Assembly: GCA_030600585.1 (NCBI GenBank)
Contig: JAUVLU010000010.1
Span: 1-64,000 of the forward strand
DNA length: 64,000 bases
Reading direction: 5' to 3'
Source: Candidatus Cloacimonadota bacterium
GTDB taxonomy: Bacteria; Cloacimonadota; Cloacimonadia; Cloacimonadales; TCS61
Under the pieces are notes generated by a model. The model was given only the letters and a program-made list of their open reading frames with translations. It did no database searches and had not been told where the DNA came from. The translations under genes and the position numbers were made by a program. Shown here piece after piece: positions 26,987 through 57,966 of the stretch. Every line of letters starts with the position of its first letter. Positions within the stretch are counted from its first letter, which is position 1.

Positions 26987-27124
26987 ACGCTGATCTACGC
27001 TGATAAATAAGAAAAACATAAGAATTTATGTTGAAATAAAGTGGATAAATTATTGTAAGTCTTTTGAATCATATTAAATCATAAGTTTCATATAAAATCT
27101 GCGTTGAATAATAAAGGAGTTATT

Positions 27125-28444
27125 ATGCAATTTTCCGAAGAGTTCTTATACCATATCTGGGATGCTCAACATTTAAAGAAGAATCTAAAAACAATATCAG
27201 GTAAAAAGCTCATCATTAAATTTCCCGGACGTTGGAATACAGATTCAGGTCCCGATTTTAAGGATGCAATTCTGGAAATAAATGGGAAAATTCAAAAAGG
27301 CGATGTCGAGATAGATCTAACCTCATATCACTGGAAATCTCACTCACATAATGAAAATCCCGAATTCAATGGTGTGCTTTTACACATCGTTTACGAAGAT
27401 AACGGAAAGTATCCTTTCACGATCAATGAAGATGGTGGGAAAATTGAGATTTTAGAGATCAAAGAACAATTAACTGATGATATCAATAAACTAATAAAAC
27501 ATTATTCAGGGAAACCGTATTCTGAGAAAGATAAAACCTGCAAATTGTTTAACAAAATGACTAAAGACGAAACAATACAACTTCTTACAAAGATGGGTAT
27601 AATGCGCTTTGAGAAGAAGATAAAACGGTTTAGTGCAGAACATTTCTTCAGCGATTTTGATCAACTTATTTATATGGGTCTCATGGAAGCTCTGGGTTAC
27701 AGTAAGAATAAATACCAAATGCTGCAGATCGCCTTGAATAACACTTTTAAAGACCTTAAACAATTTTATAATAATGGTATGACAAAAGACGAGTTTATAG
27801 GTATTCTGCTTTGTTCTTCAAATCTGATAGACCATCTTCCATCCACAATTTCCAACGAGTATAAAATGAAATGGCAAAAGCTTTTCCAAAAACAGAAATT
27901 CATAAATAAAACTTCTGAGATCAAATGGAAATTATTCAGGATAAGACCTGTTAATCATCCGGTAATAAGAATATTACAAATTACAGATATTCTTTATGAC
28001 AGCTTGGAAACATCGCTTTTCCACAATATACTAAAACTGTTCTCATTCCCTTCCAATAATTTTAAACTGAACGATTTCAAAAAGAAATTATACAGCTATT
28101 TCCAAACAGAAAATAATTACCTTCCCGAACGCTGTAAACTTGGTAAAACTCGCATTGATACAATTCTTATAAATATAATTCTGCCTCTTACTGTTATCTA
28201 TGCTCGTGAAAAGAAATACGAACAATTGGAAGATACAGCAATTAATATTTACCAAAGTTTTCCGGGTTTACCTTCAAATTATCTAACGCAATATATGGGA
28301 AAATTCTTAGATGAAGAACAGAAGAAACTAATAAAGAAACGAGCGGTTTATCAACAGGGATTACTAAAAATATATTACGAAAACTGCCGACACCATTATT
28401 GCGAAGCATGCAAAACCTTGCGAAAGATGCATCGGCTTGAGTAG
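27125..28444 (+). CDS. DUF2851 family protein
   Basis: A protein of 439 aa. The start MQFSEEFLYHIW and the block GRWNTDSGPDFKDAIL followed by KGDVEIDLTSYHWKSH are diagnostic of DUF2851, a conserved family of unknown function in Bacteroidetes-related bacteria. A nuclease-like core in the N-terminal part has been suggested by the D...E pattern, which I infer only. ATG 27125 has AAAGGAG 8 nt upstream; a TTG at 27104 would add seven residues. The end carries a Cys/His cluster (CRHHYCEAC). The last ten residues (KTLRKMHRLE) and the stop are encoded by a dispersed repeat that begins at 28411. Confidence 0.87.
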   Translation: MQFSEEFLYHIWDAQHLKKNLKTISGKKLIIKFPGRWNTDSGPDFKDAILEINGKIQKGDVEIDLTSYHWKSHSHNENPEFNGVLLHIVYEDNGKYPFTINEDGGKIEILEIKEQLTDDINKLIKHYSGKPYSEKDKTCKLFNKMTKDETIQLLTKMGIMRFEKKIKRFSAEHFFSDFDQLIYMGLMEALGYSKNKYQMLQIALNNTFKDLKQFYNNGMTKDEFIGILLCSSNLIDHLPSTISNEYKMKWQKLFQKQKFINKTSEIKWKLFRIRPVNHPVIRILQITDILYDSLETSLFHNILKLFSFPSNNFKLNDFKKKLYSYFQTENNYLPERCKLGKTRIDTILINIILPLTVIYAREKKYEQLEDTAINIYQSFPGLPSNYLTQYMGKFLDEEQKKLIKKRAVYQQGLLKIYYENCRHHYCEACKTLRKMHRLE

Positions 28445-28644
28445 CAAACGATGCTGGGACTCTCTTGCTTGTCTAACGGTTGAGTTACGGTTACCTTCGC
28501 AACGGTCGCAGACCTTGCGAATGGTGACAAAGCAATTCAGTGATTTTTTCCAACCATTAGTTGGCAGAAAGAATTCCAGTATCGTTTTCAACAAGTTGAA
28601 AGCCGATACATTATTGCGGAGGCTTACAGCCATCCGCAAGGTTT
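28411..28644. repeat. Fold-back repeat, AACCTTGCG family, copy 1
   Basis: It starts with AAAACCTTGCGA and ends with CATCCGCAAGGTTT. The left arm has GATGCATCGGCTT...CAAACGATGCTGG. The right arm has the inverse: TCCAGTATCGTTTTC...GAAAGCCGATACATT. The middle has ACCTTCGCAACGGTCG and ACCTTGCGAATGGTGACAAA. Copies with the same words are at 39134-39343, 39350-39482 and 41352-41501. The left end overlaps the 3' end of the DUF2851 gene. Confidence 0.85.
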
Positions 28645-28689
28645 AGAGTTACCTTCGGAAAGGTTACTGTAAATCAGCAATAAACAATC

Positions 28690-28720
28690 AGCCTTTCAGT
28701 GCAAACTGGGAGGCTTTTTT
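28690..28720 (+). terminator. Rho-independent terminator after DUF2851 gene
   Basis: AGCCT pairs with AGGCT and an inner CAGT pairs with ACTG, followed by seven T. It ends transcription from the left before the restriction-modification segment. Confidence 0.75.
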
Positions 28721-28792
28721 GTATCTCGTTCACTCAGCCAAGAAAACCGGCGGACTTGTAAGCCTACGGCTTATAAACCTTGAACGTGTTTG

Positions 28793-28811
28793 AACGATCG
28801 GGGCGATCGTT
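28793..28811. repeat. Perfect hairpin AACGATCG-GGG-CGATCGTT
   Basis: An 8-bp perfect stem with loop GGG, followed by TTACATATTTTTC. It may act as a second terminator. The stem contains CGATCG. Confidence 0.6.
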
Positions 28812-29117
28812 TTACATATTTTTCTTTTATCCGTGTTCATCAGTGTGTATCCGTGGGCAATTTTTTATCCTAATTACTGGTGGTTTGTCATTCCGATCTT
28901 TTCCCTCGTCATTTCGACTCCATTCGACAACCTTTGGGAATCTAAAAATTACTATAATAAAAACATTATTCTCACCTCATCCAGCGACTGCCGATTACGA
29001 ATTGGCAAATAGAGTGACTGGAAAGAATAATAAAGTAATTGACTAAATATAAAACAGAATATCTTTTTGGATTTAATTAATTTGTTATACGGATATTTAA
29101 ATATAATGAGGTTATAA

Positions 29118-32100
29118 ATGCTAAAAAAGTATCTTTCAGAAATAAAGACAATATATTTACGAGGTGATGCTAGAGAAGAAAGCTATTATTCTTGTTTGGA
29201 AAAATTGATCAATGAATTTTCTGAGAGTAAGAAGCTAAAAACTGCAATCACAACTTTGCCAAAAAAGACCGAAGCTGGAAATCCCGACTTCCGCATTTGG
29301 GACGGTAAAAATCACATAATCGGTTATATAGAAGCAAAAGCCCCAACCCAACAAAACCTTGATAATATCAAACATTCCGAACAATTGAAAAGATACATTG
29401 CCACTTTCCCAAATGTAATACTCACTAACTTTTTGGAATTTCTCTTGTTCCGAAACGGAGAAGAGATAGATCGTGTACAGATTGGAAGATTATACCATAT
29501 TGAACAATTACATAAAACTCCAGTTATGGAAAATGAGATTGAATTTTTCCAACTTCTTGAAAAATATTTTTCCTTTAATTTACCCAAAGTACATTCTGCC
29601 AGTTCACTCGCCAAAGAATTAGCCAAACGAACCCGCTTCCTGAGAGATGAAGTTGTACGAATTGAATTAGATGACGAGCATAAAAGCAATGACAGCATTT
29701 TGGGCTTTTATCAGGCATTTCAAAAATATCTTATTAAGGGTTTGACCGCAGAGGATTTTGCCGACCTTTATTCTCAAACTATAACTTATGGTTTATTTGC
29801 AGCTCGAACCAGAGCAGGAGATGATTTCAGCCGCCAACTGGCTTTCCAGTATATTCCACAAACTATTGGAATTTTGCGCGATGTTTTCCGGTTTATTTCT
29901 TTGGAAGAACCACCGCCGGCTCTACAGGTTATTGTTGATGATATTGCCGAAGTTTTAAAAGTTACAAAAGTAAATAAGATCTTGAAGAAATTTTACGAAG
30001 ATGGAAAAGGTAAAGATCCCATTATTCATTTCTATGAAACTTTCCTTTCGGCTTACGATCCTAAAATGCGTGAAAAACGCGGAGTTTATTACACTCCCGA
30101 ACCGGTTGTAAAATACATCGTTCGTGCAGTTCATACAGTTTTGAAATCTCACTTCAACTTGTCAGATGGATTGGCAGATGAAAAAGTTACTTTGCTCGAT
30201 CCGGCAGGTGGAACACTCACATTTCCAGCCGAAGCGATGAAATTAGCAGTGCAGGAATACAAAAGTAAATATGGTGATGGCAATATTCAAGCTTTCCTGC
30301 GAAATCATATTCTTAAAAACTTTTACGCCTTTGAATTAATGATGGCTCCGTATGCTATTGGACATTTAAAAATGGGTTTTCTCTTTGAAGAATTGGGTTT
30401 AACAATGCAGGATGATGAACGGTTCAAACTTTATTTAACCAATACTTTGGAAATGGAAGTATTAGATCAAATTCATATTCCGGGTTTAAGCTCTTTAAGT
30501 GAAGAAAGCCATCTTGCAGCAGATGTAAAAAAAGACCAGCCGATTCTGGTTATTATAGGAAATCCACCATACAGTGGGATTTCTTCAAATAAAAACGATT
30601 GGACAGAAAAACTTTTGAAAACAGATCTCGATGGAGCACAAAGCTATTATGAAGTTGACGGCAAACCTCTCGGAGAACGCAATCCTAAATGGCTGCAGGA
30701 CGATTATGTAAAATTCCTGCGTTTTGCTCAATGGAAGATCCAAAAAGAAGGTTTCGGTATTGTTGCCATGATTACCAATCACAGCTATTTGGATAACCCG
30801 ACCTTTCGGGGAATGCGGCAAAGTTTAACGGAAACCTTTGATGAAATGTACATCCTCGATCTGCACGGAAATTTACTGAAAAAAGAAACATGCCCTGATG
30901 GAAGCAAAGATGAAAACGTTTTTGATATTCGACAGGGTGTAGCGATTGCAATTTTCATTAAACAAAAGGATAAAGAAAATAAGAAAATTATGCATTCCGA
31001 TCTTTTCGGTTTGCGGGAAGCCAAATACAACTGGTTGGAAAAAACTGAATTCATCGAGAAGAATTATGATCCAATCAGACCAGTCTCACCTTATCATTTC
31101 TTAATCAAGAGAAATACAGATGATATTCAACAGTATTTAAAATGGCCAAAAGTAAATGAGATTTTTCCAACAAATAATGCAGGAATTGTTACTTCAAGAG
31201 ATTCTTTCTCAATTGCAATTTCACAAAATGGGTTACAACAACGTTTCTCTCAATTTAAAAACCAGAACATTGATGATGACATTATTGCATCTACATACTC
31301 TCTGAAAGATAAATCTAATTGGAAGTTAGAAAAGGCTAGAAAAGCATTAAAAAACATTGATTTTGTTGATATTGTGAAACATATTTCATATCGTCCTTTT
31401 GATGATCGTTTTATTTTATACAATTCAAATCTTGTTGAAAGGATGCGATATGATACAATGCATCATATGTTTGATGAGAATGTTGGTTTAATAACTGTTA
31501 GAAGGACTCCACCCGATAGTAAGAGTGGATATTTTTTCATTACTGATAAAATCATTTCAAATGGGTGCATTAGAAGTGATAATGTAAGTATTGATACGAT
31601 TTTGCCCCTTTATCTTTATCCCGAACAAGATTCCGGGGATTGGCACAAACAGCAGCAAACCGAGCGTCAACCAAATATTGCACCGGAAATATTGGAACAA
31701 TTAACTTCCAAATTTGGAGAGCAGCCAGCTCCCGAAGAAATACTGTATTACATTTATGCAGTGTTTTACAGTAATATTTACCGTGAGCGTTATGCGGAAT
31801 TTCTCAAGATAGATTTCCCGCGAGTTCCGTTCACTTCCAATTATAAATTGTTCAAAAAGATGGCAGATTTGGGAGAGAAAATTGCCAACCTGCATCTACT
31901 TAAAGGTGATGATTTCGATAAACCAGTTTCCCGCTATCAAGGAAGTGGGGAAGATAACAAGATCGCTAAACCAATTTACAATGAAGCAGAAAAACGAGTT
32001 TATATAAATGCTGATAAATATTTTGATAATGTGAAGCTGGAAGTCTGGGAATATCAAATCGGTGGTTACCAAGTTCTACATAAATATTTGAAAGATCGAA

Positions 32101-32219
32101 AAAGACGTCAAATGGATGATCCACGCCATTATTGCCGTGTGGTTACAGCTTTGGTAAAAACGATTGAATATCAAAAAAAGATTGATGAAATATATGAGGA
32201 TGTGGAAAAAGGGATTTAG
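29118..32219 (+). CDS. Single-chain restriction-modification enzyme (type IIG / ISP-like N6-adenine methyltransferase with nuclease)
   Basis: A protein of 1033 aa. Residues about 20-110 form a PD-(D/E)xK nuclease: D57 in GNPDF and E72-x-K74 in YIEAKAP. A helical connector follows (about 150-330). The N6-adenine methyltransferase starts near 330 with RGVYYTPEPVVKYIVR, SAM-binding motif LLDPAGGTLTFPAEA and the catalytic motif IIGNPPYSG near 480. The last 350 residues match the target-recognition region of type ISP enzymes in layout. The helicase block of LlaBIII-like ISP enzymes is absent, which explains the smaller size and points to a type IIG-like enzyme that cuts without translocation. No separate specificity or methylase gene is nearby. 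It lies in a repeat-flanked accessory segment and is probably mobile. Confidence 0.88.
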   Translation: MLKKYLSEIKTIYLRGDAREESYYSCLEKLINEFSESKKLKTAITTLPKKTEAGNPDFRIWDGKNHIIGYIEAKAPTQQNLDNIKHSEQLKRYIATFPNVILTNFLEFLLFRNGEEIDRVQIGRLYHIEQLHKTPVMENEIEFFQLLEKYFSFNLPKVHSASSLAKELAKRTRFLRDEVVRIELDDEHKSNDSILGFYQAFQKYLIKGLTAEDFADLYSQTITYGLFAARTRAGDDFSRQLAFQYIPQTIGILRDVFRFISLEEPPPALQVIVDDIAEVLKVTKVNKILKKFYEDGKGKDPIIHFYETFLSAYDPKMREKRGVYYTPEPVVKYIVRAVHTVLKSHFNLSDGLADEKVTLLDPAGGTLTFPAEAMKLAVQEYKSKYGDGNIQAFLRNHILKNFYAFELMMAPYAIGHLKMGFLFEELGLTMQDDERFKLYLTNTLEMEVLDQIHIPGLSSLSEESHLAADVKKDQPILVIIGNPPYSGISSNKNDWTEKLLKTDLDGAQSYYEVDGKPLGERNPKWLQDDYVKFLRFAQWKIQKEGFGIVAMITNHSYLDNPTFRGMRQSLTETFDEMYILDLHGNLLKKETCPDGSKDENVFDIRQGVAIAIFIKQKDKENKKIMHSDLFGLREAKYNWLEKTEFIEKNYDPIRPVSPYHFLIKRNTDDIQQYLKWPKVNEIFPTNNAGIVTSRDSFSIAISQNGLQQRFSQFKNQNIDDDIIASTYSLKDKSNWKLEKARKALKNIDFVDIVKHISYRPFDDRFILYNSNLVERMRYDTMHHMFDENVGLITVRRTPPDSKSGYFFITDKIISNGCIRSDNVSIDTILPLYLYPEQDSGDWHKQQQTERQPNIAPEILEQLTSKFGEQPAPEEILYYIYAVFYSNIYRERYAEFLKIDFPRVPFTSNYKLFKKMADLGEKIANLHLLKGDDFDKPVSRYQGSGEDNKIAKPIYNEAEKRVYINADKYFDNVKLEVWEYQIGGYQVLHKYLKDRKRRQMDDPRHYCRVVTALVKTIEYQKKIDEIYEDVEKGI

Positions 32220-32230
32220 AATCTATTTAA

Positions 32231-32341
32231 GCAGTAATCTTTGGTAAAAATGCCGATGAAAGAGAAATTGAGATAATAAGAAAAATTGTCGAAAGTAATT
32301 ATGATAATGTGAAAAATTCAATAATAGAATTACAGACTTGA
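32231..32341 (+). pseudogene. Short open fragment after the restriction gene
   Basis: A 36-codon frame with no start codon reads VIFGKNADEREIEIIRKIV and continues to a TGA at 32339, inside the repeat that begins at 32335. The composition looks protein-like (Glu, Ile and Lys-rich helix), so it may be the end of a decayed gene. I cannot assign a family. Chance is possible at this length. Confidence 0.25.
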
Positions 32342-32427
32342 CTTAAGACGGAGTCTTGAGTTAAGTTGACTTATAACAACAGATTAGAAAACTTAAGTCA
32401 AGTCAGCTAAAGCGAACTTAACTCAAG
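32335..32427. repeat. Four interleaved inverted repeats of the CTTGACTTAAG type
   Basis: GACTTGACTTAAG (32335-32347) is the exact complement of CTTAAGTCAAGTC (32392-32404). CTTGAGTTAAGTT (32355-32367) is the exact complement of AACTTAACTCAAG (32415-32427). The two 13-bp pairs interleave as A-B-C-D with A pairing C and B pairing D. A shorter relative is at 12812-12848. Confidence 0.85.
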
Positions 32428-32753
32428 TTTTCGATAGAGAAAAATTGTAAGAAAAAATATTCTTCTTGCTTTTCTTATGCTTGCCCGCCTCTGGTGTGGT
32501 TCCTTCTTTCTTGAGAGAAGGACACGCCTTCGTATTAAACTACGGCGGTGCAAGTAGCAGGATGAGTTAAAAAAAAAGGCAGAATTATATTCTTTTATTT
32601 CAGATCACTTTACCCCGAAGGGGTTTTATAAAATAGCCGCCGGTGAAACCGGTGGTACATAAAAAACAAAAAATCAACCCTGAAGGGGTTAAATATCTAA
32701 AGCAGGAACGAAATTCCGCTTATTCAATCATCCTGATTGAACCACATATAAAA
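32428..32753. repeat. Remainder of the 594-bp gap: small hairpin repeats
   Basis: Holds ACCCC-GAA-GGGGT (32612-32624), CCGGT-GAA-ACCGG (32640-32652) followed by TGGTACATAA, and AACCC-TGAA-GGGGTT (32676-32690). A short CCTTCT/AGAAGG stem lies near 32500-32520. The repeated use of a GAA loop on GC-rich stems is typical of FCB intergenic repeats. No gene is seen. Confidence 0.55.
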
Positions 32754-32777
32754 AAGGGCAGAAATTAATCCGCCCTT
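32751..32777 (-). terminator. Rho-independent terminator of the cyclic-DPG-synthetase-like gene
   Basis: On the minus strand AAGGGC (32777-32772) pairs with GCCCTT (32759-32754), followed by TTTTT (32755-32751). It lies 37 bp beyond the stop codon of the leftward gene. Confidence 0.78.
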
Positions 32778-32813
32778 ATTCTATTTACTACTTACTGAAT
32801 ACTATTTACTGAT

Positions 32814-34130
32814 TTAACAGAAGTCTTTTAAAACATCAGCGATTGTTGGATGTCCGATTTCCTGAAGTTCATAAGTTACCTGAGCTGCAGGTTTATTGAT
32901 CTTAAGTATTCTTCTAAGATCGATAGGAGTTGCAATAACAACTGCATCACATTCTGTTTTATTAATTGTAGTTTCCAGGTCTTTGATCTGTTGTTCACCA
33001 TAACCCATTGCCGGAAGTAAAATCCCGATTTCAGGATATTTCTCAAATGTTTCTGCAATAGAACCAACAGCGTATGGACGTGGATCAACCAGGTCAGCAG
33101 CACCGTATTTCTCAGCAGCTACAATACCCGCACCATATTTCATTTCACCATGAGTAAGAGTTGGACCGTCTTCCACGATAAGCACCTCAGCGCCTTTCAC
33201 GATCTCTGGTTTGTCAATGCTCACAGGAGAAGCACCATCGATAACGACAGCTTCGGGATTAAGTTCACGGATGTTATCTCGAACTATCTGGATTCCTTCA
33301 GGATCAGCAGAATCTATCTTGTTGATAACGACAACATCAGCATTGATAAGGTTAGTTTCACCCGGGTAATAAGATCTTTCATGATCCGGTCTGTGTGGAT
33401 CGACAACAACAATATTTATCATATTATCTGAAACATAAAAAGGCGTATCATTGTTTCCGCCGTCCCATACTATTACATCAGCTTCTTTTTCAGCTTCACG
33501 CACAATAGCTTCATAATCTACACCAGAGTAAATTATGCTGCCCATCATAATATGTGGTTCGTATTCTTCCATTTCTTCAATTGTACATTCATGTTTTACA
33601 AGATCTTCAAGCTCTGCAAATCTTTGTACTTTTTGTTTAATAAGATCACCGTAAGGCATTGGGTGGCGAATTGAAGCCACTTTAAGTCCTTTTTCTTTAA
33701 GAACTTTTACAACCGCACGTGTAGTTTGGCTCTTTCCGCAACCTGTTCTTGTAGCACAGATCGTTATCAATGGCTTGGTTGTTTTAACGGTAGAATTGTT
33801 CATTCCGATAAGTTTGAAATCGGCTCCGGCAGCATTAACCAGAGAAGCATTGTTCATAACTCTTTCATGTGGAACATCACTGTAAGCAAATACAACTTCT
33901 TCTACATTATGTTCCTTTATCAGGTTTACTATTTCATTTTCTGCGAAGATAGGGATACCTTCAGGATAGAGTTCTCCGGCAAGTTCAGCCGGATATTTTC
34001 TTCCATCGATATCAGGGATCTGTGTTGCCGTGAAAGCAACTACAACGTAATTATCATTGTTTCTGTAATAACAATTAAAGTTATGAAAATCACGCCCTGC
34101 AGCACCCATAATGATGACTTTTTTCTTCAT
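32814..34130 (-). CDS. Cyclic 2,3-diphosphoglycerate synthetase-like GTPase
   Basis: A protein of 438 aa. The N-terminal part is Rossmann-like (IIMGAAGRDFHNFN). A P-loop domain follows from about 125, with ATRTGCGKSQTTRAV, then VIVWDGGNNDTPF and a VVVINKID-type base-recognition motif. It matches proteins named after the methanogen cyclic 2,3-diphosphoglycerate synthetase. In bacteria the product has not been shown, and the CobW/hydrogenase-maturation-like P-loop (GCGKS) would also fit a metal or cofactor role. AAAGGAGAG precedes the ATG. It is divergent from nfu, with a 205-bp shared upstream region. Confidence 0.83.
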   Translation of the reverse strand: MKKKVIIMGAAGRDFHNFNCYYRNNDNYVVVAFTATQIPDIDGRKYPAELAGELYPEGIPIFAENEIVNLIKEHNVEEVVFAYSDVPHERVMNNASLVNAAGADFKLIGMNNSTVKTTKPLITICATRTGCGKSQTTRAVVKVLKEKGLKVASIRHPMPYGDLIKQKVQRFAELEDLVKHECTIEEMEEYEPHIMMGSIIYSGVDYEAIVREAEKEADVIVWDGGNNDTPFYVSDNMINIVVVDPHRPDHERSYYPGETNLINADVVVINKIDSADPEGIQIVRDNIRELNPEAVVIDGASPVSIDKPEIVKGAEVLIVEDGPTLTHGEMKYGAGIVAAEKYGAADLVDPRPYAVGSIAETFEKYPEIGILLPAMGYGEQQIKDLETTINKTECDAVVIATPIDLRRILKINKPAAQVTYELQEIGHPTIADVLKDFC

Positions 34131-34294
34131 CTTTCTCTCCTTTATCTTTAGTTTATAATTTAGAAGCTACGCTTAAAAATAGGGGTTTGAAGTCAAGAAG
34201 TTTAATAATTGTAATTAATTATTAATTTAATAAGAATTTATAACTTTACTAATTTTTAATTATTATATTTTAGGTATCATTAAAAAAAACGTAT

Positions 34295-34331
34295 GGAGAT
34301 CGTTTGCAAATGCAAGCCGACTCCCGGGAGG
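34295..34331 (+). promoter_or_regulatory. Structured leader covering the nfu ribosome-binding site
   Basis: GGAGATCG (34295-34302) can pair with CGACTCC (34318-34324) with one bulged A, closing an inner TTGCA/TGCAA stem. Overlapping it, CTCCCGGGAG (34321-34330) is self-complementary and contains the Shine-Dalgarno GGGAGG. A switch between the two states could expose or hide the start of nfu. Seen in sequence; function inferred. Confidence 0.4.
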
Positions 34332-34335
34332 AAAT

Positions 34336-34563
34336 ATGTTGGATAAAGTAAAAGTTCAGGAAGTTCTAAATAAAGTTCGTCCTTCTCTTCAAGCAGATGG
34401 CGGAGATTGTGAGCTTATTAACATCACAGAAGATAATGTTGTTGAAGTAAGATTGAAAGGTGCTTGTGGAAACTGCCCGATGGCTACTCTCACTCTTAAA
34501 GCAGGCATCGAACGAGTCCTGAAAGAAGAGATCCCTGAAGTTAAAGAAGTTATTTCAGTTTAA
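34336..34563 (+). CDS. Nfu-type iron-sulfur carrier (NifU C-terminal domain)
   Basis: A protein of 75 aa consisting only of the NifU_C domain. It has [11 protein letters not shown], then the cluster-binding pair in [13 protein letters not shown] (CxxC), and ends in [10 protein letters not shown]. As a dimer it would hold one [4Fe-4S] cluster between the two CxxC motifs and pass it to targets such as PFOR or the dehydratase activase encoded in this window. GGGAGGAAAT precedes the ATG. Confidence 0.95.
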
Positions 34564-34644
34564 GTTCAGAGGAATAATAAATTAAAAAATAGAGGTATCT
34601 TGTAAATAGATCCCTCAATTATATTTAATGGTTTTGGAGAAAGA

Positions 34645-35046
34645 ATGAAACATAAACATTATTCACAAGTATCTTTGGAAGAAGTTACAATGGAAGGAGC
34701 AAAGAAAGCAAAGATTCGCTGGCTCATTTCAGAAAAGGATAAAGCTCCTAATTTTGCAATGCGCATGTTTGAGGTTGAACCCGGTGGTTTTACACCGTAT
34801 CATTCCCACAGTTGGGAACATGAAAATTTCATTGTTGAAGGTACCGGCACTTTGGTAACTGAAGACGGCGAATTTCCCTTCAAACAAGGTGATGTAATAT
34901 TTGTAGATCCTTTTATGAAACATAATTATAAAAATACAGGCGATACAACTCTTAAATTTCTTTGTTTAATTCCGTTAGAAAAACCGGCAAAAAAAATCAG
35001 ACAAAATGTGAATCCTTTTGCAGCCGGCAAAGCAAATAATTGTTAA
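34645..35046 (+). CDS. Small cupin-domain protein
   Basis: A protein of 133 aa with one cupin barrel. Metal-binding motif 1 is HSHSWEHENFIVEG (three His and one Glu), and motif 2 is FVDPFMKHNYKNTG. The C-terminal 20 residues are basic and include a Cys two residues from the end. Such single-domain cupins bind a metal but vary in function, so none is assigned. It lies 81 bp after nfu and 23 bp before the peptidase gene. Confidence 0.9.
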   Translation: MKHKHYSQVSLEEVTMEGAKKAKIRWLISEKDKAPNFAMRMFEVEPGGFTPYHSHSWEHENFIVEGTGTLVTEDGEFPFKQGDVIFVDPFMKHNYKNTGDTTLKFLCLIPLEKPAKKIRQNVNPFAAGKANNC

Positions 35047-35069
35047 TAAATATAAATAGGAGAAAGTTT

Positions 35070-36125
35070 ATGGAAAAGAAATTCTTTAAAGATCTTGTAA
35101 TGGCACCAAGCCCTTCCGGATTTGAACAACCGGCGCAGGAAGTGTACAGAAACTTTGTAAAAAAATACGCAGATGAAGTTACAACCGATGTTCATGGAAA
35201 TGTGATAGCACTTAAAAAAGGAACCGGCAAACTTCGTATCATGATTTCCGGTCATGCTGACGAAATTGGGCTGATGATTAAATACATCGATGATAACGGA
35301 TTTATCAGATTTACAGCTATTGGTGGTGTGGATGCAACTCTGCTCCCCGGACTTCGTGTAAATATCTATCATAATAAAAAGGTTGTACGTGGTATTATCG
35401 GCAGAAAGCCGATTCATTTAATGACCCCGGAAGATAGAAAAAATACACCAAAATTATCTGATCTCTGGATCGATATTGGCGCAAAAGATAAAAAAGCTGC
35501 TGAGAAAAGAGTGTGTGTTGGTGATCATATAACATACTCACCCGGTTTGGAAACTCTTTCAGGAAGCATTATTACAACTAAAGCTACAGATAATAAAGCA
35601 GGTGTTTACGTTGCCGGATGTCTTCTTAAAGAACTCGCCGGTAAAAAGATCTCTGCAAATATTTATTCGGTTTCTTCAGTTCAGGAAGAAGTTGGACTTC
35701 GCGGCGCAAGAACAAGTGCTTTTGGTATCGATCCACACGTTGGTATAGCAATTGATGTTACTCATGCTTCCGATTATCCGGGAATTGACAAAAATCAATT
35801 GGGTGAAGTTACATTGGGAAAAGGACCGTCCATCGCTGTTGGTGCAAACATAAACCCCAAAGTATTTGAACTTCTTAAAAAAGCCGGAGAAAATGTAAAA
35901 GTTCAGTATCAGATAGAAGCTGCACCACGCGGAACCGGAACCGATGCGAATGCGATTCAAATTACAAGAGCCGGTGTTGCAGCAGGACTCGTCAGTATTC
36001 CAAATAGATACATGCATACTCCCAACGAAGTGATCTCATTTAAAGATCTGGATGGAGCTGTGAAATTACTTGTTGAATTTGTGTGTCTAATCGATGATAA
36101 CACAGATTTTATTCCTAAAGTATAG
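35070..36125 (+). CDS. M42-family aminopeptidase
   Basis: A protein of 351 aa of the glutamyl aminopeptidase / cellulase M group. The co-catalytic metal ligands are visible in ISGHADEIG, TDNKAGVYV, SVQEEVGLRGA (catalytic Glu and ligand Glu), IDVTHASDYPG and the late RYMHTPNE. It forms large tetrahedral assemblies that degrade short peptides in the cytosol. ATG 35070 is chosen because AGGAG lies 7 nt upstream; the ATG-like start ten codons before would overlap the cupin gene and lacks a binding site. It ends before a palindromic repeat and a terminator. Confidence 0.94.
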   Translation: MEKKFFKDLVMAPSPSGFEQPAQEVYRNFVKKYADEVTTDVHGNVIALKKGTGKLRIMISGHADEIGLMIKYIDDNGFIRFTAIGGVDATLLPGLRVNIYHNKKVVRGIIGRKPIHLMTPEDRKNTPKLSDLWIDIGAKDKKAAEKRVCVGDHITYSPGLETLSGSIITTKATDNKAGVYVAGCLLKELAGKKISANIYSVSSVQEEVGLRGARTSAFGIDPHVGIAIDVTHASDYPGIDKNQLGEVTLGKGPSIAVGANINPKVFELLKKAGENVKVQYQIEAAPRGTGTDANAIQITRAGVAAGLVSIPNRYMHTPNEVISFKDLDGAVKLLVEFVCLIDDNTDFIPKV

Positions 36126-36139
36126 ACTAATTAGTGATC

Positions 36140-36296
36140 ATCCGTAGAGTCGGTTTTATCATCCTGCCTGCCACGTCGAAGCTTAGCGAAGACGGGAGCG
36201 GAGTCGGTTTTGTCATCCTGAGCGGAGTCGAAGGATTGTAACAATATGGTTCGTCTAAGCCTGTCCTGAGCTAAGTCGAAAGGCTCAGCACGATAG
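36140..36296. repeat. Dispersed intergenic repeat cluster (TCATCCTGAGCGGAGTCGAAGGAT type)
   Basis: AGTCGGTTTTATCATCCTG and AGTCGGTTTTGTCATCCTG occur in tandem here, followed by AGCGGAGTCGAAGGATTG and TCCTGAGCTAAGTCGAAAGG. Words of this kind recur at 47221 in altered form. Short GTCGAAG motifs are characteristic of a very widespread intergenic repeat of FCB and other bacteria. No coding function is seen. Confidence 0.7.
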
Positions 36297-36342
36297 TTTT
36301 TATGATTTTATGTACTTTGCGAATAGACGTTAAATAATAAAT

Positions 36343-36373
36343 AAAAGGTAGAGAATTTTCTCTGCCTTTTTAT
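36343..36373 (+). terminator. Rho-independent terminator after the M42 peptidase gene
   Basis: AAAAGG-T-AGAGAA pairs with TTCTCT-G-CCTTTT (stem with one mismatch), followed by T-rich sequence. The palindrome would also work in the other direction. Confidence 0.75.
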
Positions 36374-36386
36374 AATCTGAGGTAAT

Positions 36387-37136
36387 ATGATAATTGTTAA
36401 TAATCTTACAAAAGTATTTCATCAACAAAATGGGGAAGAGCTTTATGCTGTTAATGATCTCTCATTCACTGCTGATAAGGGTGAGATAGTTGTTTTATTG
36501 GGAGTGAACGGAGCGGGGAAGACGACTGCAATGCGGATGCTTTCTACTGTTTTGCAGCCTACGGCAGGAACTGCAACTCTCGAAGGCTACGATCTTAAAA
36601 AAGATCCACAGAATGTGAGAGCTAATCTTGGGTTTCTTTCGGGGGATACCGGACTTTATGCCAGACTTACCGCACGCGAAACTATTACATATTTTGCTAG
36701 ACTGTATGATGTTCCTGAAAATAAGATAGATGCCCGGATAAATGAAATGGCTGATCTATTGGATATGCATGATTTCCTGGATAAAAAAATCGATTTTCTT
36801 TCCACCGGCATGAAACAGAAAGTTTCCATAGCTCGCTCGATTATTCACGATCCTCCCATAATGATATTTGATGAACCAACTGCGGGACTCGATATCCTGA
36901 CTGCAAAAAATATAATCTCCTTCATTCATAAATGTAAAGAAGATGGGAAATGTGTTCTCTTCTCAACTCATATCATGCGGGAAGCCGAACGAATTGCAGA
37001 TAAAATTGTCATGATCCATCAAGGGAAAGTTCTGGCTCAGGGCAGTTGGGAAAATTTTAAAAAAGATACAGGTCTGCATGACCTCGATGACATTTTCATT
37101 CATTATGTGAATAACATAACGAAGGAGGATGTATGA
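36387..37136 (+). CDS. ABC transporter ATP-binding protein (NatA-like)
   Basis: A protein of 249 aa. Walker A is LGVNGAGKTT, the signature is STGMKQKVSIA (a variant of LSGGQ) and Walker B is PIMIFDEPTAGLD, followed by the His of FSTHIM. It is most like the NatA / drug- or ion-exporter group. It overlaps by 4 bp the gene of its permease, so the two form an export system. Confidence 0.93.
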   Translation: MIIVNNLTKVFHQQNGEELYAVNDLSFTADKGEIVVLLGVNGAGKTTAMRMLSTVLQPTAGTATLEGYDLKKDPQNVRANLGFLSGDTGLYARLTARETITYFARLYDVPENKIDARINEMADLLDMHDFLDKKIDFLSTGMKQKVSIARSIIHDPPIMIFDEPTAGLDILTAKNIISFIHKCKEDGKCVLFSTHIMREAERIADKIVMIHQGKVLAQGSWENFKKDTGLHDLDDIFIHYVNNITKEDV

Positions 37137-39187
37137 ATTTAAAGAAAATATTCGTAATCTATAAAAAAGAAATGCTCGATCTCGTTCGTGACAGAAGAAC
37201 TATAATTACCGCATTCGTACTTCCAATTATACTCTATCCACTTTTAATGATCGGTATTTCATCGATGATGTCACGTCAGGAAATGAAACTGGAGCAGCAG
37301 GAACTTGTTATATATCTTAATGATACTATTCATGATGAGACTTCCCGTGAATTAATAGAATCACTTTCTCAAATCGAGACTCTTCAAATCATGGATGAAG
37401 CAATAGTTTACAACGAGGGTACATATCTTGATCTACTTCAGGATAAATCTATTCAGGCTCTGATCAATATTGAGGACAGTCTATCTTCATCCGGCTATAG
37501 AATTTTCAATATTACCTGTTTCTACGATGAAACTTCCGAGAAAAGTTCTATGGCATACAGAAAGATCAAAGACAATCTGCGTGATCTTGAAGAAGTTCTT
37601 ATCAGTAAAAGATTGGAGAAGATAAAAATAAACAGTGAAATTCTCAATGCAGTAGAGATCAAAAAGGAGAATATCGCTCCACCGGAACAGATGGTCGGTT
37701 TTGTTGTTGGGAAGTTCCTGCCGTATCTGCTTATTATGCTTACGATAAGCGGTGCTTCTGTAATAGCATCGGATCTGATAGCTGGTGAAAAGGAACGCGG
37801 CACGCTTGAAACAATTCTGGTAAGTGCTGCTAGACGGGATGAACTGGTTATTGGTAAATATCTCACAATTATTACAATTTCAATTATCACTGTTCTTTTA
37901 AATCTTTTGAGTATGTATCTGTCTTTCCGGCATATATTTATGCAGACGGGAACAAATATAGGTGACTTCCAATTACCAATTGGAAATTTTGTGCTCATCT
38001 TGTTGTTGATGCTTCCATTAATTACATTATTCTCAGCTATTCTGCTTTCTATTTCAACATATTCCAGGAATATTAAGGAAGCTCAAAGCTATCAAATGCC
38101 GTTACTTTTTGGAGCTATCATGCTTTCTATGGTTAGTTTTCTGCCCGGATTTGAATTGAATATAGGTTTCGCTCTTATCCCAATTGTAAATTTTTCTTTG
38201 TTAATGCGCGATATCATGATGAATAATTTTCAATTAAGTTATTTATTTATTGTAATAGGGTCCACACTGGTCCTAGATGTTATCACAGTATATATTTCAA
38301 TAAAACTATTCCATAGTGAAAATGTTCTTTTTAGAACTGCCGAGGAAAAATCACTGAAATTCTGGGGTAAAAATAAGAAAGATGTTCTCAACATACAATT
38401 TATTATGGTCTATTTTGTTATCATGATAATTGCACTTTATTATATCGGTGGAAGCTGGCAGTTAAAGGATATGATGAACGGACTCATCAAAACTCAATTA
38501 CTCATAATTTTATTACCGGTAATAATGATTTTAAGAATTTCTAAAGCAGATATTAAAAAGACTTTAAGATTGAATTATACAAATCCGATAAATTTCTTGT
38601 TAGTGCTCATTGCAGCACTTCCACTTTTATTGTTATCAGGAATTTTGGGTCAGATTATTAACCATATATTTCCTGTTTCCGAAGCATATTTGGAAATCCT
38701 GCAGAATCTGATTACAGTTCAACAAGAAGGTTTATGGTTCACGATCTTCGTAGTTGGAATTTTACCAGGGGTTTGTGAGGAAGTAATGTTCAGGGGGTTT
38801 ATTTTAAATGCCTTAAGAAAGAAAGGGGTTTGGTATGGAATAATTCTTACGGCTGTTTTGTTTGGAGCTTTCCATCTTGATCCGTTCCGTTTTCTTCCTG
38901 CAACTTTACTTGGAATTTGGCTTGGTTATCTCGCAGTTAAAACTAATAGCTTATTTGTACCTGTTCTGGCACATTTTTTGCAGAATTCACTGGCAATTCT
39001 CATAACAAATTATGCAGAGAATTTTTCATTTATCAAACTTATAATTAGAGATGATGAGATAGCATATTGGGTTGTTATTCCTTCTGTAATAATACTTTAT
39101 TTTGTTGTAAAAGGTTTATCAACTCTAAATCCTAAAACCTTCGCAACGGTCGAGGAACAAGACCTTGCGAACGGTGACAAAGATTGA
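37133..39187 (+). CDS. ABC-2 permease fused to a CPBP intramembrane protease (NatB-type)
   Basis: A protein of 684 aa. Residues 1-400 form an ABC-2 permease: a first helix near 27-45, a large extracytoplasmic loop, then six helices including IASDLIAGEKERGTLETIL. Residues about 410-660 form a CPBP/CAAX-type membrane protease with CEEVMFRGFIL (motif 1, Glu-Glu), FGAFHLDPFRF (motif 2 His) and AHFLQNS (motif 3 His). Fused permease-proteases of this order are known in several phyla. Their cargo is unknown; sodium or peptide export is proposed for relatives. The last 17 residues (KTFATVEEQDLANGDKD) and the stop are encoded by a dispersed repeat. Confidence 0.9.
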   Translation: MNLKKIFVIYKKEMLDLVRDRRTIITAFVLPIILYPLLMIGISSMMSRQEMKLEQQELVIYLNDTIHDETSRELIESLSQIETLQIMDEAIVYNEGTYLDLLQDKSIQALINIEDSLSSSGYRIFNITCFYDETSEKSSMAYRKIKDNLRDLEEVLISKRLEKIKINSEILNAVEIKKENIAPPEQMVGFVVGKFLPYLLIMLTISGASVIASDLIAGEKERGTLETILVSAARRDELVIGKYLTIITISIITVLLNLLSMYLSFRHIFMQTGTNIGDFQLPIGNFVLILLLMLPLITLFSAILLSISTYSRNIKEAQSYQMPLLFGAIMLSMVSFLPGFELNIGFALIPIVNFSLLMRDIMMNNFQLSYLFIVIGSTLVLDVITVYISIKLFHSENVLFRTAEEKSLKFWGKNKKDVLNIQFIMVYFVIMIIALYYIGGSWQLKDMMNGLIKTQLLIILLPVIMILRISKADIKKTLRLNYTNPINFLLVLIAALPLLLLSGILGQIINHIFPVSEAYLEILQNLITVQQEGLWFTIFVVGILPGVCEEVMFRGFILNALRKKGVWYGIILTAVLFGAFHLDPFRFLPATLLGIWLGYLAVKTNSLFVPVLAHFLQNSLAILITNYAENFSFIKLIIRDDEIAYWVVIPSVIILYFVVKGLSTLNPKTFATVEEQDLANGDKD

Positions 39188-39343
39188 TCAGTGTTTCTTC
39201 CAACCATTGCGTCCATTCTCCGAAGTATTCTACGAAGGATGAAGAGGTCTCCGACCATCAGACAGGTGAGAGAGTTCCAGCATCGTTTTCTTGAAAAGCA
39301 GGAAGAATCAATGACGAAAGCCGATGCATCATCCGTAAGGTTT
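39134..39343. repeat. Fold-back repeat, AACCTTGCG family, copy 2
   Basis: It starts AAAACCTTCGCAACGGTCG, contains GACCTTGCGAACGGTGACAAA and TCCAACCATTGCG, and ends with the inverse arm TCCAGCATCGTTTTC...AAAGCCGATGCATCATC, then CCGTAAGGTTT. The first 54 bp are inside the coding region of the ABC permease fusion. Confidence 0.85.
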
Positions 39344-39349
39344 AGTGTT

Positions 39350-39482
39350 ACCTTCGCAACGGTTGAAATCCTTGCGAATGGTGACAAAGTGATTTAATGG
39401 TTGAACGCCTTGCGAATGGTGAAAATGATTGATCAGTGTTTCTTTCAACCATTGCGGAGGACATTGTCCATCCGCAAGGTTT
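39350..39482. repeat. Fold-back repeat, AACCTTGCG family, copy 3 (shorter)
   Basis: It begins ACCTTCGCAACGGTTGAAA, 6 bp after copy 2. It contains CCTTGCGAATGGTGACAAAG and a second CCTTGCGAATGGTG, and ends in the hairpin AACCATTGCGGA / TCCGCAAGGTTT. It ends 22 bp before the glmS start. Together, copies 2 and 3 fill the 317-bp gap between the ABC permease gene and glmS; no glmS-type ribozyme is seen. Confidence 0.85.
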
Positions 39483-39504
39483 CAGTAAATATTAAGGAGC
39501 AAAT

Positions 39505-41343
39505 ATGTGTGGTATAGTAGGATATATTGGTAAAAGAAATGCAACACCAATAATTATTGAGGGAATTAAGAGATTGGAATATCGTGGTTACGATAGTTCC
39601 GGTATTGCAATTCTGAATGATGAAAAAGAACTTAAGATATTTAAAGAATCAGGTAAAATAATAGAACTTGAAAGAGCTTTACCTTCACCTGAACAAACTT
39701 TCGGAAATGTTGGAATTGCTCACACTCGCTGGGCAACTCATGGTGAACCAAATACAATTAACGCACACCCGCATACCGGCTGTAAAGGCAAGATTGCCGT
39801 TGTTCACAACGGTATTATTGAAAATCATATGAACTTACGTAACAAATTAGAATCAGAAGGTCACAAGTTCAAAAGTGACACCGATTCAGAAGTCTTAGCA
39901 CATCTAATTGAACACTTTTTAAAGATAGAAAATAATCTTAAGATAGCTGTTCAGGATGCTTTAAAATTAGTAGAAGGAACATTTGGTATTGCAGTTATCA
40001 GCCAAGAAAATCCTGATAGTATAATTGCAGCTCGTAAGGGAAGTCCGTTAATCTTAGGGATTGGGGAAGACGAGTTTTTTGTTACTTCAGATGTGACTGC
40101 TATAATTATTCATACAAAAAAAGTTATCTATCTCGAAGATGATGAAATTGTAACCATAAACCATGAAAGTTACCAAATTACAAATTTGCAAAATGAAGAT
40201 ATTGAAGCCGATATTTCAATTGTAGATTGGGATGTATCCTCAATTGATAAAGGAGAATACAAGCATTTTATGCTCAAGGAGATCTTCGAACAACCTACTT
40301 CTATCTATAATGCCTTTAGAGGACGACTTTATGGAAGACTTTCTACTGTGAAGTTGGGTGGATTGAATATGACAGGAGAGGAGTTACGCAGGGTTAAAAG
40401 GCTACAAATAATTGCCTGTGGAACTTCCTGGCATGCAGCTCTTATTGGAAAACACATCATAGAAAATCTGGCAAGGATCCCTGTAGAAGTGGAATATGCC
40501 AGTGAGTATCGTTATCGAAATCCAATCATTCCAGAGGATACAATTGTTTTTGCAATCAGTCAATCTGGTGAAACAGCCGATACTCTTGCCGGTTTAAGAG
40601 AAGCGCAGGCAAAAGGTGCTAGAGTTCTGGGTATCACAAATACTATTGGAAGTACAATTGCCCGTGAATCTGATGGTGGCACATATATTCATGCCGGAGT
40701 TGAGATAGGTGTAGCCTCTACAAAAGCATTTACATCTCAAGTAACAATTCTTACACTTCTTGCTGTTTTATTGGGTAGAATGAAAGATCTCCAACCTACT
40801 TTCGGAAAATCTTTCATCAGGGAACTCGAATTAATTCCCAAAAAGATTGAAGTTATATTACAAAAAAGCAACGAGATTAGAAAAATTGCAAAAACAATAA
40901 AAAACTTTCCAAATGCGCTTTATCTGGGAAGAGGTGTGAATTACCCTGTAGCTTTAGAGGGTGCACTCAAGCTAAAGGAAATTTCCTACATTCATGCAGA
41001 AGGTTATCCTGCAGCCGAAATGAAACACGGTCCGATTGCACTAATAGATGAAAATATGCCCGTTATAGCCATTGCCCCTGATGATGAAATTTACGAAAAA
41101 ATTATTTCTAACTTAGAAGAAGTGAAAGCAAGGAATGGTCGTATTATTTCTATTGCCACAGAAGGTGATGAAAGGATTAAACAAATATCAGAGAGTGTTA
41201 TTTATGTTCCGAAAACTATTAGGACATTGCAGCCTCTACTTACAGTGATTCCACTTCAACTTCTCGCATATCATGTTGCAGACCTGCGCGGATTAGATGT
41301 AGATCAACCCAGGAATCTTGCCAAAAGCGTCACTGTAGAATAA
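39505..41343 (+). CDS. glmS: Glutamine--fructose-6-phosphate aminotransferase (isomerizing)
   Basis: A protein of 612 aa that makes glucosamine 6-phosphate for cell-wall and lipopolysaccharide sugars. Cys2 after the initiator Met is the glutaminase nucleophile (MCGIVGYIG). RGYDSSG, HTRWATHGEP and HNGIIENH are conserved. Two SIS domains follow, with CGTSWHAAL, SQSGETADTL and the C-terminal QPRNLAKSVTVE. The ribosome-binding site AAGGAG lies just after a repeat. Control must rest on a promoter inside or before the repeats. Confidence 0.97.
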   Translation: MCGIVGYIGKRNATPIIIEGIKRLEYRGYDSSGIAILNDEKELKIFKESGKIIELERALPSPEQTFGNVGIAHTRWATHGEPNTINAHPHTGCKGKIAVVHNGIIENHMNLRNKLESEGHKFKSDTDSEVLAHLIEHFLKIENNLKIAVQDALKLVEGTFGIAVISQENPDSIIAARKGSPLILGIGEDEFFVTSDVTAIIIHTKKVIYLEDDEIVTINHESYQITNLQNEDIEADISIVDWDVSSIDKGEYKHFMLKEIFEQPTSIYNAFRGRLYGRLSTVKLGGLNMTGEELRRVKRLQIIACGTSWHAALIGKHIIENLARIPVEVEYASEYRYRNPIIPEDTIVFAISQSGETADTLAGLREAQAKGARVLGITNTIGSTIARESDGGTYIHAGVEIGVASTKAFTSQVTILTLLAVLLGRMKDLQPTFGKSFIRELELIPKKIEVILQKSNEIRKIAKTIKNFPNALYLGRGVNYPVALEGALKLKEISYIHAEGYPAAEMKHGPIALIDENMPVIAIAPDDEIYEKIISNLEEVKARNGRIISIATEGDERIKQISESVIYVPKTIRTLQPLLTVIPLQLLAYHVADLRGLDVDQPRNLAKSVTVE

Positions 41344-41351
41344 TTGTTATT

Positions 41352-41501
41352 TACCTTCGCAATCATGCATCGGCTTTGCAAAGCAAAACGATGCTGGAAC
41401 TCTCTTGCTTAACAAACGGTCGAGGAACGAGACCTTGCGAATGGTGACTAAAAGAATGGTTGTTCAACCATTGCGGAGGTCTTTGACCATCCGCAAGGTT
41501 T
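41352..41501. repeat. Fold-back repeat, AACCTTGCG family, copy 4
   Basis: It starts ACCTTCGCAATCATGCATCGG, has a GCATCG / CGATGC hairpin around GCTTTGCAAAGCAAAA, then ACGGTCGAGGAACGAGACC and TTGCGAATGGTGAC, and ends in the hairpin AACCATTGCGGA / TCCGCAAGGTTT. It fills the 168-bp gap between glmS and recO almost completely, and the recO ribosome-binding site TAAGGT begins at its last base. Confidence 0.85.
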
Positions 41502-41511
41502 AAGGTAATTT

Positions 41512-43476: not shown

Positions 43477-43684
43477 AGCCGCGAAGTTCACTAAGGAGCA
43501 CTAAGACAAAAAACGAAAGGTTTTTCTCCCGACTTAGCACATGATCTTTGACATGTGCTAAGTCTTGGTTGAAACTTGTCCCAAGTTCCTGCAGTAATCT
43601 TCCTTCGGCAATTAAATCTTGGGATAAGTTGGTTTGAACCATATTCTTTGCGTCTTTGCGTTCTTAGCGGTGAAAAAAGGAAAT
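43477..43684. repeat. Palindromic repeat before folE2, long copy
   Basis: It starts AGCCGCGAAGTTCACTAAGG and ends GCGTTCTTAGCGGTGAAAA-AAGGAAAT. Inside, GACTTAGCACATG (43531-43543) pairs perfectly over 13 bp with CATGTGCTAAGTC (43552-43564). AACTTGTCCCAAG (43573-43585) pairs with CTTGGGATAAGTT (43618-43630) with one mismatch. Its last bases are the ribosome-binding site of folE2. Confidence 0.85.
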
Positions 43685-43687
43685 ATT

Positions 43688-44500
43688 ATGAAAGATAAAA
43701 TTGATATACAAAGTCTGGAAGATAAAAGAAATGTAATGATAAACAAAGTTGGTGTGAAAAATGTGCAATATCCAATTATTGTGGATGACCGTGAGAATAA
43801 ATTACAGAATACAGTTGCCGATCTGGACATTTTTGTAGAACTGCCGCATCATAATCGTGGAACACACATGAGCAGATTTCTGGAAGTTCTTAATCATTTC
43901 CATAAAGATAATTTAATTCAGAGATTACCGGAGTTTCTTGCTGAAATAAAGAAAGCTCTTAATTCCGATTGTGCTTATGTTAACATCAGGTTCCCGTACT
44001 TTATGAAGAAGGCAGCTCCGGTTTCCAAAACCAGTTCACTGCTTTCTTATAACTGTTATTTTCAGGCTTCACTAAACAATGAATTCGAAATGCAGATTGG
44101 AGTTGAGGTACCGATTACTACTTTATGTCCATGCTCAAAGGAAATAAGTGATAATGGCGCTCATAGTCAGCGGTCAATGGTAAATGTAATAATTGGTTAC
44201 AATAAATTTATCTGGTTGGAAGAGATAATACAGCTTGTAGAAAGTTGTGCGAGTTGTGAGATATATTCGCTGCTTAAACGGGTTGATGAAAAATACGTTA
44301 CAGAAAAAGCTTATGAGAATCCAAAATTTGTTGAGGATATTGTAAGAGAAGTTACATTAAAATTGCAAAAAGATGAACGAGTTGATTGGTTCAAAGTGCA
44401 ATCGGAAAATTATGAATCGATCCATAATCATAATGCTTATGCCTGCGTGGAATTTGATAAAAGAAAAAAATCAGCCGCGAAGTACACGAAGAAGCACTAA
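43688..44500 (+). CDS. folE2: GTP cyclohydrolase, FolE2 type
   Basis: A protein of 270 aa. It carries the FolE2 marks VELPHHNRGTHMSRF, TTLCPCSKEISDNGAHSQRS with the catalytic-site Cys, and the C-terminal NYESIHNHNAYA. It opens GTP to dihydroneopterin triphosphate for folate or queuosine, and unlike FolE can use metals other than zinc. ATG 43688 has AAAAAAGGAAA upstream; an in-frame ATG at 43634 would add 18 residues encoded by repeat DNA and is rejected. The last nine residues (SAAKYTKKH) and the stop are also encoded by a second copy of that repeat. Confidence 0.95.
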   Translation: MKDKIDIQSLEDKRNVMINKVGVKNVQYPIIVDDRENKLQNTVADLDIFVELPHHNRGTHMSRFLEVLNHFHKDNLIQRLPEFLAEIKKALNSDCAYVNIRFPYFMKKAAPVSKTSSLLSYNCYFQASLNNEFEMQIGVEVPITTLCPCSKEISDNGAHSQRSMVNVIIGYNKFIWLEEIIQLVESCASCEIYSLLKRVDEKYVTEKAYENPKFVEDIVREVTLKLQKDERVDWFKVQSENYESIHNHNAYACVEFDKRKKSAAKYTKKH

Positions 44501-44615
44501 GACGAAAAACGAAATGTTTTTTCCCGATTTAACACATGATCTTCGACATGGGTCAAGTCTTGGTTAGTTTGTATTCTTAGCGTCTTTGCGTTCTTGGCGG
44601 TGGAAAAAAGGAAAT
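44473..44615. repeat. Palindromic repeat after folE2, short copy
   Basis: It starts AGCCGCGAAGTACACGAAG and ends GCGTTCTTGGCGGTGG-AAAAAAGGAAAT. The central stem is decayed (GATTTAACACATG against CATGGGTCAAGTC), and the second palindrome of the long copy is missing. It fills the folE2 to M16 gap completely, overlaps the folE2 3' end by 28 bp and ends in the ribosome-binding site of the next gene. Confidence 0.85.
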
Positions 44616-44617
44616 AA

Positions 44618-57795: not shown

Positions 57796-57966
57796 TTTTT
57801 CACCGCAAAGAACGCAAAGACGCAAATTCTAAACTTCTATAACCGTGAATCTCGTTCCCAATGCCCTCATTGGGAACACACAGCATTTCCAAACGGGCAG
57901 TCTGTGTGAAAATGAAAAATCCGTTGATTTTAGGAACTTAAATTAGCCTTCTAAACTTCTATAACC
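57796..57966. repeat. Hairpins and direct repeat after pdxJ
   Basis: TTTCACCGCAAAGAACGCAAA at its left is the inverse of the right end of the folE2 repeats. GTTCCCAATG-CCCT-CATTGGGAAC (57854-57877) is a perfect 10-bp hairpin that may terminate pdxJ. CACACAG (57877-57883) pairs with CTGTGTG (57902-57908). An 18-bp word TTCTAAACTTCTATAACC is present twice, at 57827-57844 and 57949-57966. Confidence 0.7.

Follow-up and report, generated by a model that had tools for sequence, protein, structure and literature searches.

The window analysed here, a 64-kb stretch of the genome of a Candidatus Cloacimonadota bacterium, holds four fold-back sequences with common ends, which raises the question of what these repeats are and what could have moved them. 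An original prediction, made from the letters of the window, offered two readings, a non-autonomous mobile element or a structured RNA-level repeat. In this study I argue that the repeats are very probably REPs, mostly arranged as inverted pairs (REPINs, BIME-like), and as such non-autonomous mobile DNA, with the Y1/HUH tyrosine transposase (RAYT) of the C25 gene in the same genome as the likely agent.

The four units and their common hairpin

All four fold-back copies are present within a few bases of where they had been placed (Table 1), and their common words and inverted arms are real: ACCTTGCGAATGGTGACAAA or one-letter variants of it occur at 28512, 39162 and 39369, TCCGCAAGGTTT stands at the right ends, and GATGCATCGGCTT and AAGCCGATGCATC are the inverted arms. 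Within the window, all five exact occurrences of the 14-base word CTTGCGAAYGGTGA fall inside the four units. Folded as single strands, the units beat their shuffles (z -2.3 to -7.6), with -90.5 kcal/mol and z -7.6 for unit 1.

Table 1. Positions of the repeat units, nested modules and an adjoining REP of another family in the window.
Feature	Position	Strand	Remarks
Unit 1	28413..28644	+	long-loop REP 28415-28506; adjoining arm 28512-28525; spacer; inverted long-loop REP 28550-28644
Nested module, type GATGCATCGGCTTGAGTAGCAAACGATGCTGGRAYTCTCTTGCTTGTCTAAYGGT, in REP loop of unit 1	28427..28475	+	19 copies genome-wide, reversed control 0
Second nested module of unit 1, CAACTTGTTG-loop subtype	28554..28612	-	missing from paralogue L008
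GTAG-tagged REP copy of another family (CGATCGGGGCGATCG), adjoining unit 1	28780..28812	+	cognate RAYT locus L177
Unit 2	39134..39345	+	REP 39137-39175; conserved spacer; inverted REP with inserts 39207-39343
Unit 3	39348..39483	+	REP 39350-39382; extra arm 39408-39420; spacer; inverted REP 39445-39481; z -4.5
Unit 4, between glmS and recO	41352..41502	+	REP with module 41353-41445; spacer; inverted REP 41465-41501; z -4.9
54-bp nested module of unit 4	41363..41416	+	missing at orthologous unit in G009

The repeats are built from one kind of hairpin, ACC-N7-Y-GGT / loop / ACC-N7'-Y-GGT, whose 7-base cores complement each other. The ACC at the end of one arm forms base pairs with the GGT of its partner arm, and each arm leaves one pyrimidine unpaired; from the foot upwards, the fold consists of an outer ACC/GGT stem, an unpaired pyrimidine, the 7-bp core, the second unpaired pyrimidine and an inner GGT/ACC stem. 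Cores are fully Watson-Crick in 30 of the 33 hairpins of the own genome; 2000 random re-pairings of the arms gave 7.6 such hairpins on average and 15 at most. The cores vary between copies by compensatory changes (TTGCGAA/TTCGCAA, TTGCGGA/TCCGCAA, TTACGGA/TCCGTAA, TTCCAAA/TTTGGAA). The two bulge bases are identical within a hairpin in 31 of 33 cases in the own genome and in 56 of 58 cases in relatives (Fisher P ~8e-6 and ~1e-7, values that are optimistic because the copies are related). As in REPINs, the units of 90-230 bp consist of a pair of these hairpins, inverted relative to each other and separated by a spacer that is conserved in part (GACAAAGATTGATCAGTGTTTCTTYC in unit 2, with a close match in unit 3).

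The GTAG tag is found in none of 37 hairpins of the own genome and in none of 76 in relatives (0 of 113 in total), and the 5' and 3' flank profiles of the hairpins show no conserved CGTC tetranucleotide. The GTAG- and CGTC-tagged palindrome superfamilies (PMC3733652) resemble the present repeats in being short dispersed palindromes with loop variants that give stop codons to flanking ORFs; however, with neither tag, the ACC-N7-Y-GGT family lies outside both.

The neighbour of unit 1 (window 29118-32219) encodes a single-chain Type ISP restriction-modification enzyme (Type_ISP_C, N6 methylase). A separate repeat, TTTGCGTCTTTGCGTTCTTAGCGGTGAAAAA, is located at window positions 43642-43694, 44572-44624 and 57796-57826 (inverted), and two of its copies directly precede an ATG, with a stretch rich in GGA, and look as though they provided the leader of those genes.

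Genome-wide occurrence and empty orthologous sites

The repeats were counted in the own genome (G000, a 2.58-Mb assembly in 89 contigs) by pattern and profile searches, and as the patterns are approximate, the counts are lower bounds. The arm motif CCTTGCGAAYGGTGA with up to two mismatches has 54 sites where its reversed control has 6; for the arm motif ACCTTCGCAAYGGTY with up to one mismatch the numbers are 52 and 0. In the own genome, a core-free pattern for the hairpin architecture (ACCTN5AYGGT, 2-30 bases, ACCTN5AYGGT) picks out 43 strict hairpins; 30 of 60 relatives also have matches, up to 82 in each, while the reversed pattern yields 0 in every genome. The copies form at least 39 clusters, a modest number for a REP family, though well above the ten or so below which the original prediction would have been in doubt; its fold is conserved as well, as the paired cores show, and the repeats did not turn out to be part of a longer known element. 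With ORFs called mechanically, 35 clusters are intergenic, 2 lie within an ORF and 2 at contig edges; the intergenic ones are located between co-directional (23), convergent (6) or divergent (6) genes. A scan of public contigs with a 16-base word, too short for this use, gave 114 stretches, nearly all of them single matches in unrelated genomes; among the named public contigs listed, only L086, from a Candidatus Cloacimonadota MAG, contains the word twice, within a dense array of the same units.

The original prediction saw no ORF inside the units, which is true, but two flanking ORFs of the window run into repeats and end there, with the repeats providing their C-terminus and stop codon. These are the ORFs at 27104-28444 (DUF2851) and at 37133-39187 (ABC-2/CAAX protease, ending in ...NPKTFATVEEQDLANGDKD*). 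As the orthologue of the latter protein in the congener G002 ends in ...NPVVIENIEE, without any repeat, unit 2 displaced the original protein end.

Comparison of orthologous loci with and without the repeat, which had been suggested as a check, shows that the sites around glmS are empty in congeners. Units 2 and 3 are missing upstream of glmS in G002, where the site is clean, and also in G003, G008 and G005; unit 4 is missing in G002 and present without its module in G009. The empty orthologous sites point to insertion. At the glmS loci compared, I found no duplication of a whole-unit kind at an empty site, and neither an exact target duplication nor an exact junction could be made out there.

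Alternatively, the repeats may be old and now immobile, having been distributed when intergenic segments recombined or underwent gene conversion. The loci L019, L169 and L171 have a caaagctccataat...taatg flank in common, the right half and downstream flank of unit 1 recur at its paralogue L008 (G000:C53:60728), and the relative G013 is rich in repeats without having the transposase, all of which would agree with such a spread. However, most copies have flanks that are unrelated to each other, the empty sites speak for insertion, and conversion leaves unexplained why cognate hairpins lie beside one transposase clade (see below), so that I consider this explanation unlikely.

Nested modules in long-loop variants

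The units had been described as varying by gain or loss of arms. These modular arms are long-loop variants of the REP, with a nested hairpin of 44-54 bp within the REP and a short direct repeat flanking it, and what is gained or lost is this nested module, as can be seen directly at the glmS-recO locus, where the orthologous unit of the congener G009 is without the 54-bp module. The piece GATGCATCGGCTT...AAACGATGC is the nested hairpin, with TGGAAYTCTCTTGC as its tail. I rejected the module as a free element, as its 19 genome copies (reversed control 0) are all in or beside the ACC-N7-Y-GGT REP. Among paralogues, L169 and L019 have their flanks in common and differ by the module, and L008 is without the inner module of unit 1. 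The CAACTTGTTG-loop subtype of the module also adjoins G000:C47:41095 and C53:94792.

On either side of the module stands a copy of RAYGGT or of a sequence close to it. The Y agrees between both copies in 15 of the 19 modules, and in the 3 module copies whose REP core has G at the position of R, R is G on both sides. The nested hairpin was probably inserted into the apical side of the REP, with a short duplication (RAYGGT), and the module data fit such an insertion; its presence and absence may also have arisen by loss, or by copying through template switching. Another loop variant of the same REP, with a nested AACCTGCCAAAGGCAGGTAAACC hairpin, was found at L010 and L028 (G000:C10, C21), so the REP loop tolerates different inserts.

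The RAYGGT-like duplications around the modules, and the AACC...GGTT ends that make inverted repeats, might bring to mind a conventional MITE, moved by a DDE transposase by means of terminal inverted repeats and target-site duplications. Every REP is itself an internal palindrome, however, no duplication of the whole unit is seen at an empty site, and the gene that the repeats bracket is of the Y1/HUH type, which together make a MITE extremely improbable.

A transposase clade bracketed by the hairpin

A RAYT that shares its ends with the repeats, which the original prediction had proposed to look for, was found on contig C25 (the C25 gene). The own genome has eight Y1_Tnp matches; the C25 protein (L179:1231-1797(-), 188 aa) matches this family (PF01797) with 36 bits at a cut-off of 23, and its best and only NCBIfam match is NF047646, the REP-associated tyrosine transposase (65 bits, below the equivalog cut-off of 80). 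It contains the motifs NHYH and YIHNNP, and a sequence search of the PDB gave no match. Full ACC-N7-Y-GGT units lie on both sides of the gene, and at the hairpin density of the own genome both 500-bp flanks would contain a hairpin by chance with a probability of ~7e-5.

Among ~89 Y1 loci, five genes have strict ACC-N7-Y-GGT hairpins on both sides, namely C25 and those in G022, G034, G045 and G051, which belong to four genera and two families. In a tree of these loci all five fall within one clade of seven members (support 99/92), and all five match NF047646. Two of the genes are broken, by a stop (G022) and by a frame split (G034). The other two members of the clade have the near-variant hairpins GGA/TCC and AAC/GTT, and a Y1 gene in G047 is flanked by a related form, GGC/GCC, which suggests that the hairpin architecture is wider than the strict pattern. 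The link between repeat and transposase is not one to one, because no transposase of the C25 clade was detected in G013 (60 hairpins) and G052 (20); the transposase may have been lost once the repeats had spread, the assemblies may be incomplete, or a different transposase may act, any of which would account for this. More broadly, G013, G044 and G050, which are of one genus, and G052 have many hairpins of this type, and no bracketed clade transposase was found in them.

The bracketing also bears on the RNA-level reading, according to which the units are maintained for a regulatory role, as 3'-UTR stabilisers, attenuators or terminators, with an incidental association to a DNA transposase. The units do fold well as RNA, they are intergenic and often near 3' ends, with 23 of the 39 clusters between co-directional genes, and such secondary roles are known for REPs (PMC3733652). 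However, they match no Rfam family, a terminator scan found no terminator-like site at the glmS units, the units are missing at orthologous loci in congeners, and the palindromes track and bracket one clade of DNA transposases. The RNA-level reading is therefore not needed and seems quite improbable, although the repeats may have a secondary RNA effect, for instance on 3'-end stability. The prediction of a non-autonomous mobile element, on the other hand, gains from more than ten copies, a conserved fold with compensatory core changes, a bracketed RAYT-type gene and empty orthologous sites.

In a broad sense, the repeats and the C25 gene have most features of a REP/RAYT system: a PF01797 gene bracketed by the repeat, dispersed, mostly extragenic imperfect palindromes, inverted pairs, and a palindrome type that evolves together with the transposase lineage. 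The REP/REPIN and RAYT (TnpA-REP) systems of the gammaproteobacteria (PMC2817692, PMC3116915, PMC8266576) likewise consist of dispersed extragenic hairpins with stem irregularities and inverted pairs, and of a Y1/HUH transposase that is bracketed by its own palindromes and diverges together with them. In contrast to these, the present system lacks a GTAG guide, has two symmetric one-base bulges of matched identity and includes long-loop REPs that contain a nested module; its copies are fewer, and its transposases carry the motifs NHYH / LFEG / YIHxNP. Atypical flanking structures are known for the TnpA-Y1 subclasses 2.6 and 3 (PMC6006769). Subclass 2.6, mostly from Bacteroidetes, has transposases of similar length and such structures also elsewhere in the genome, and differs in its motifs, with HUH NH[LIV]H and WQ against NHYH and FE here (PMC6006769). 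The motifs of subclass 2.1 / TIRYT (NH[YF]H, FQ, Y[IV]HLNP) are the closest to those of the C25 clade, a resemblance of motifs only, but this subclass is reported to be free of REP-like sequences and to have a C-terminal HTH, whereas the present proteins of ~190 aa come with clear REPs (PMC6006769, PMC3733652).

In the TnpA-REP model, the folded strand is recognised via its stem irregularities and cut near the hairpin foot, followed by strand transfer (PMC8266576). By analogy, each REP would fold as single-stranded DNA into the bulged hairpin, which the C25 transposase would recognise; the element would be cut next to the hairpin foot, as single-stranded DNA and probably at the replication fork, and joined elsewhere, mostly between genes. 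I infer this mobility and cleavage, as well as hairpin binding, the single-strand route and any current activity, from the sequence patterns described above. As the GTAG guide is missing, the twin bulged pyrimidines would be the obvious candidate for recognition. A more specific proposal, which I put forward tentatively and hold to be rather doubtful, is that untagged REPs, recognised by two symmetric bulged pyrimidines and not by GTAG, are driven by a RAYT clade whose motif type has been reported as REP-free, and that the nested module of 44-54 bp is itself a second-order element, inserting into REP loops with a short target duplication.

In open-access text I found no paper describing REPs in Cloacimonadota. 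The untagged family and its transposase clade, probably of this phylum, appear to be undescribed, while the kind of system is already known. In a phylum that is mostly uncultivated, a large load of repeats without annotation is thereby tied to identifiable transposases, and a REP system that lacks the GTAG guide allows comparative tests of the rule by which a RAYT locates its hairpin and the site to cut. One genome with several RAYTs, whose palindromes are distinct, provides a natural panel for specificity, and most of the RAYTs inspected in relatives are likewise bracketed by palindromes of their own. In the own genome, a different palindrome, with a GTAG tag, lies on both sides of the C77 gene; at this locus (L177, G000:C77, 1052-2130) the GTAG REP family (GTAGAGCGATCGCCCCGATCG / ACGTTCAAGGTGAACGT) forms arrays around its own RAYT. 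A third RAYT (L178, G000:C60, 1130-2295) has on both sides direct copies of a composite of ~250 bp with AACTTGAATTAAGTT palindromes.
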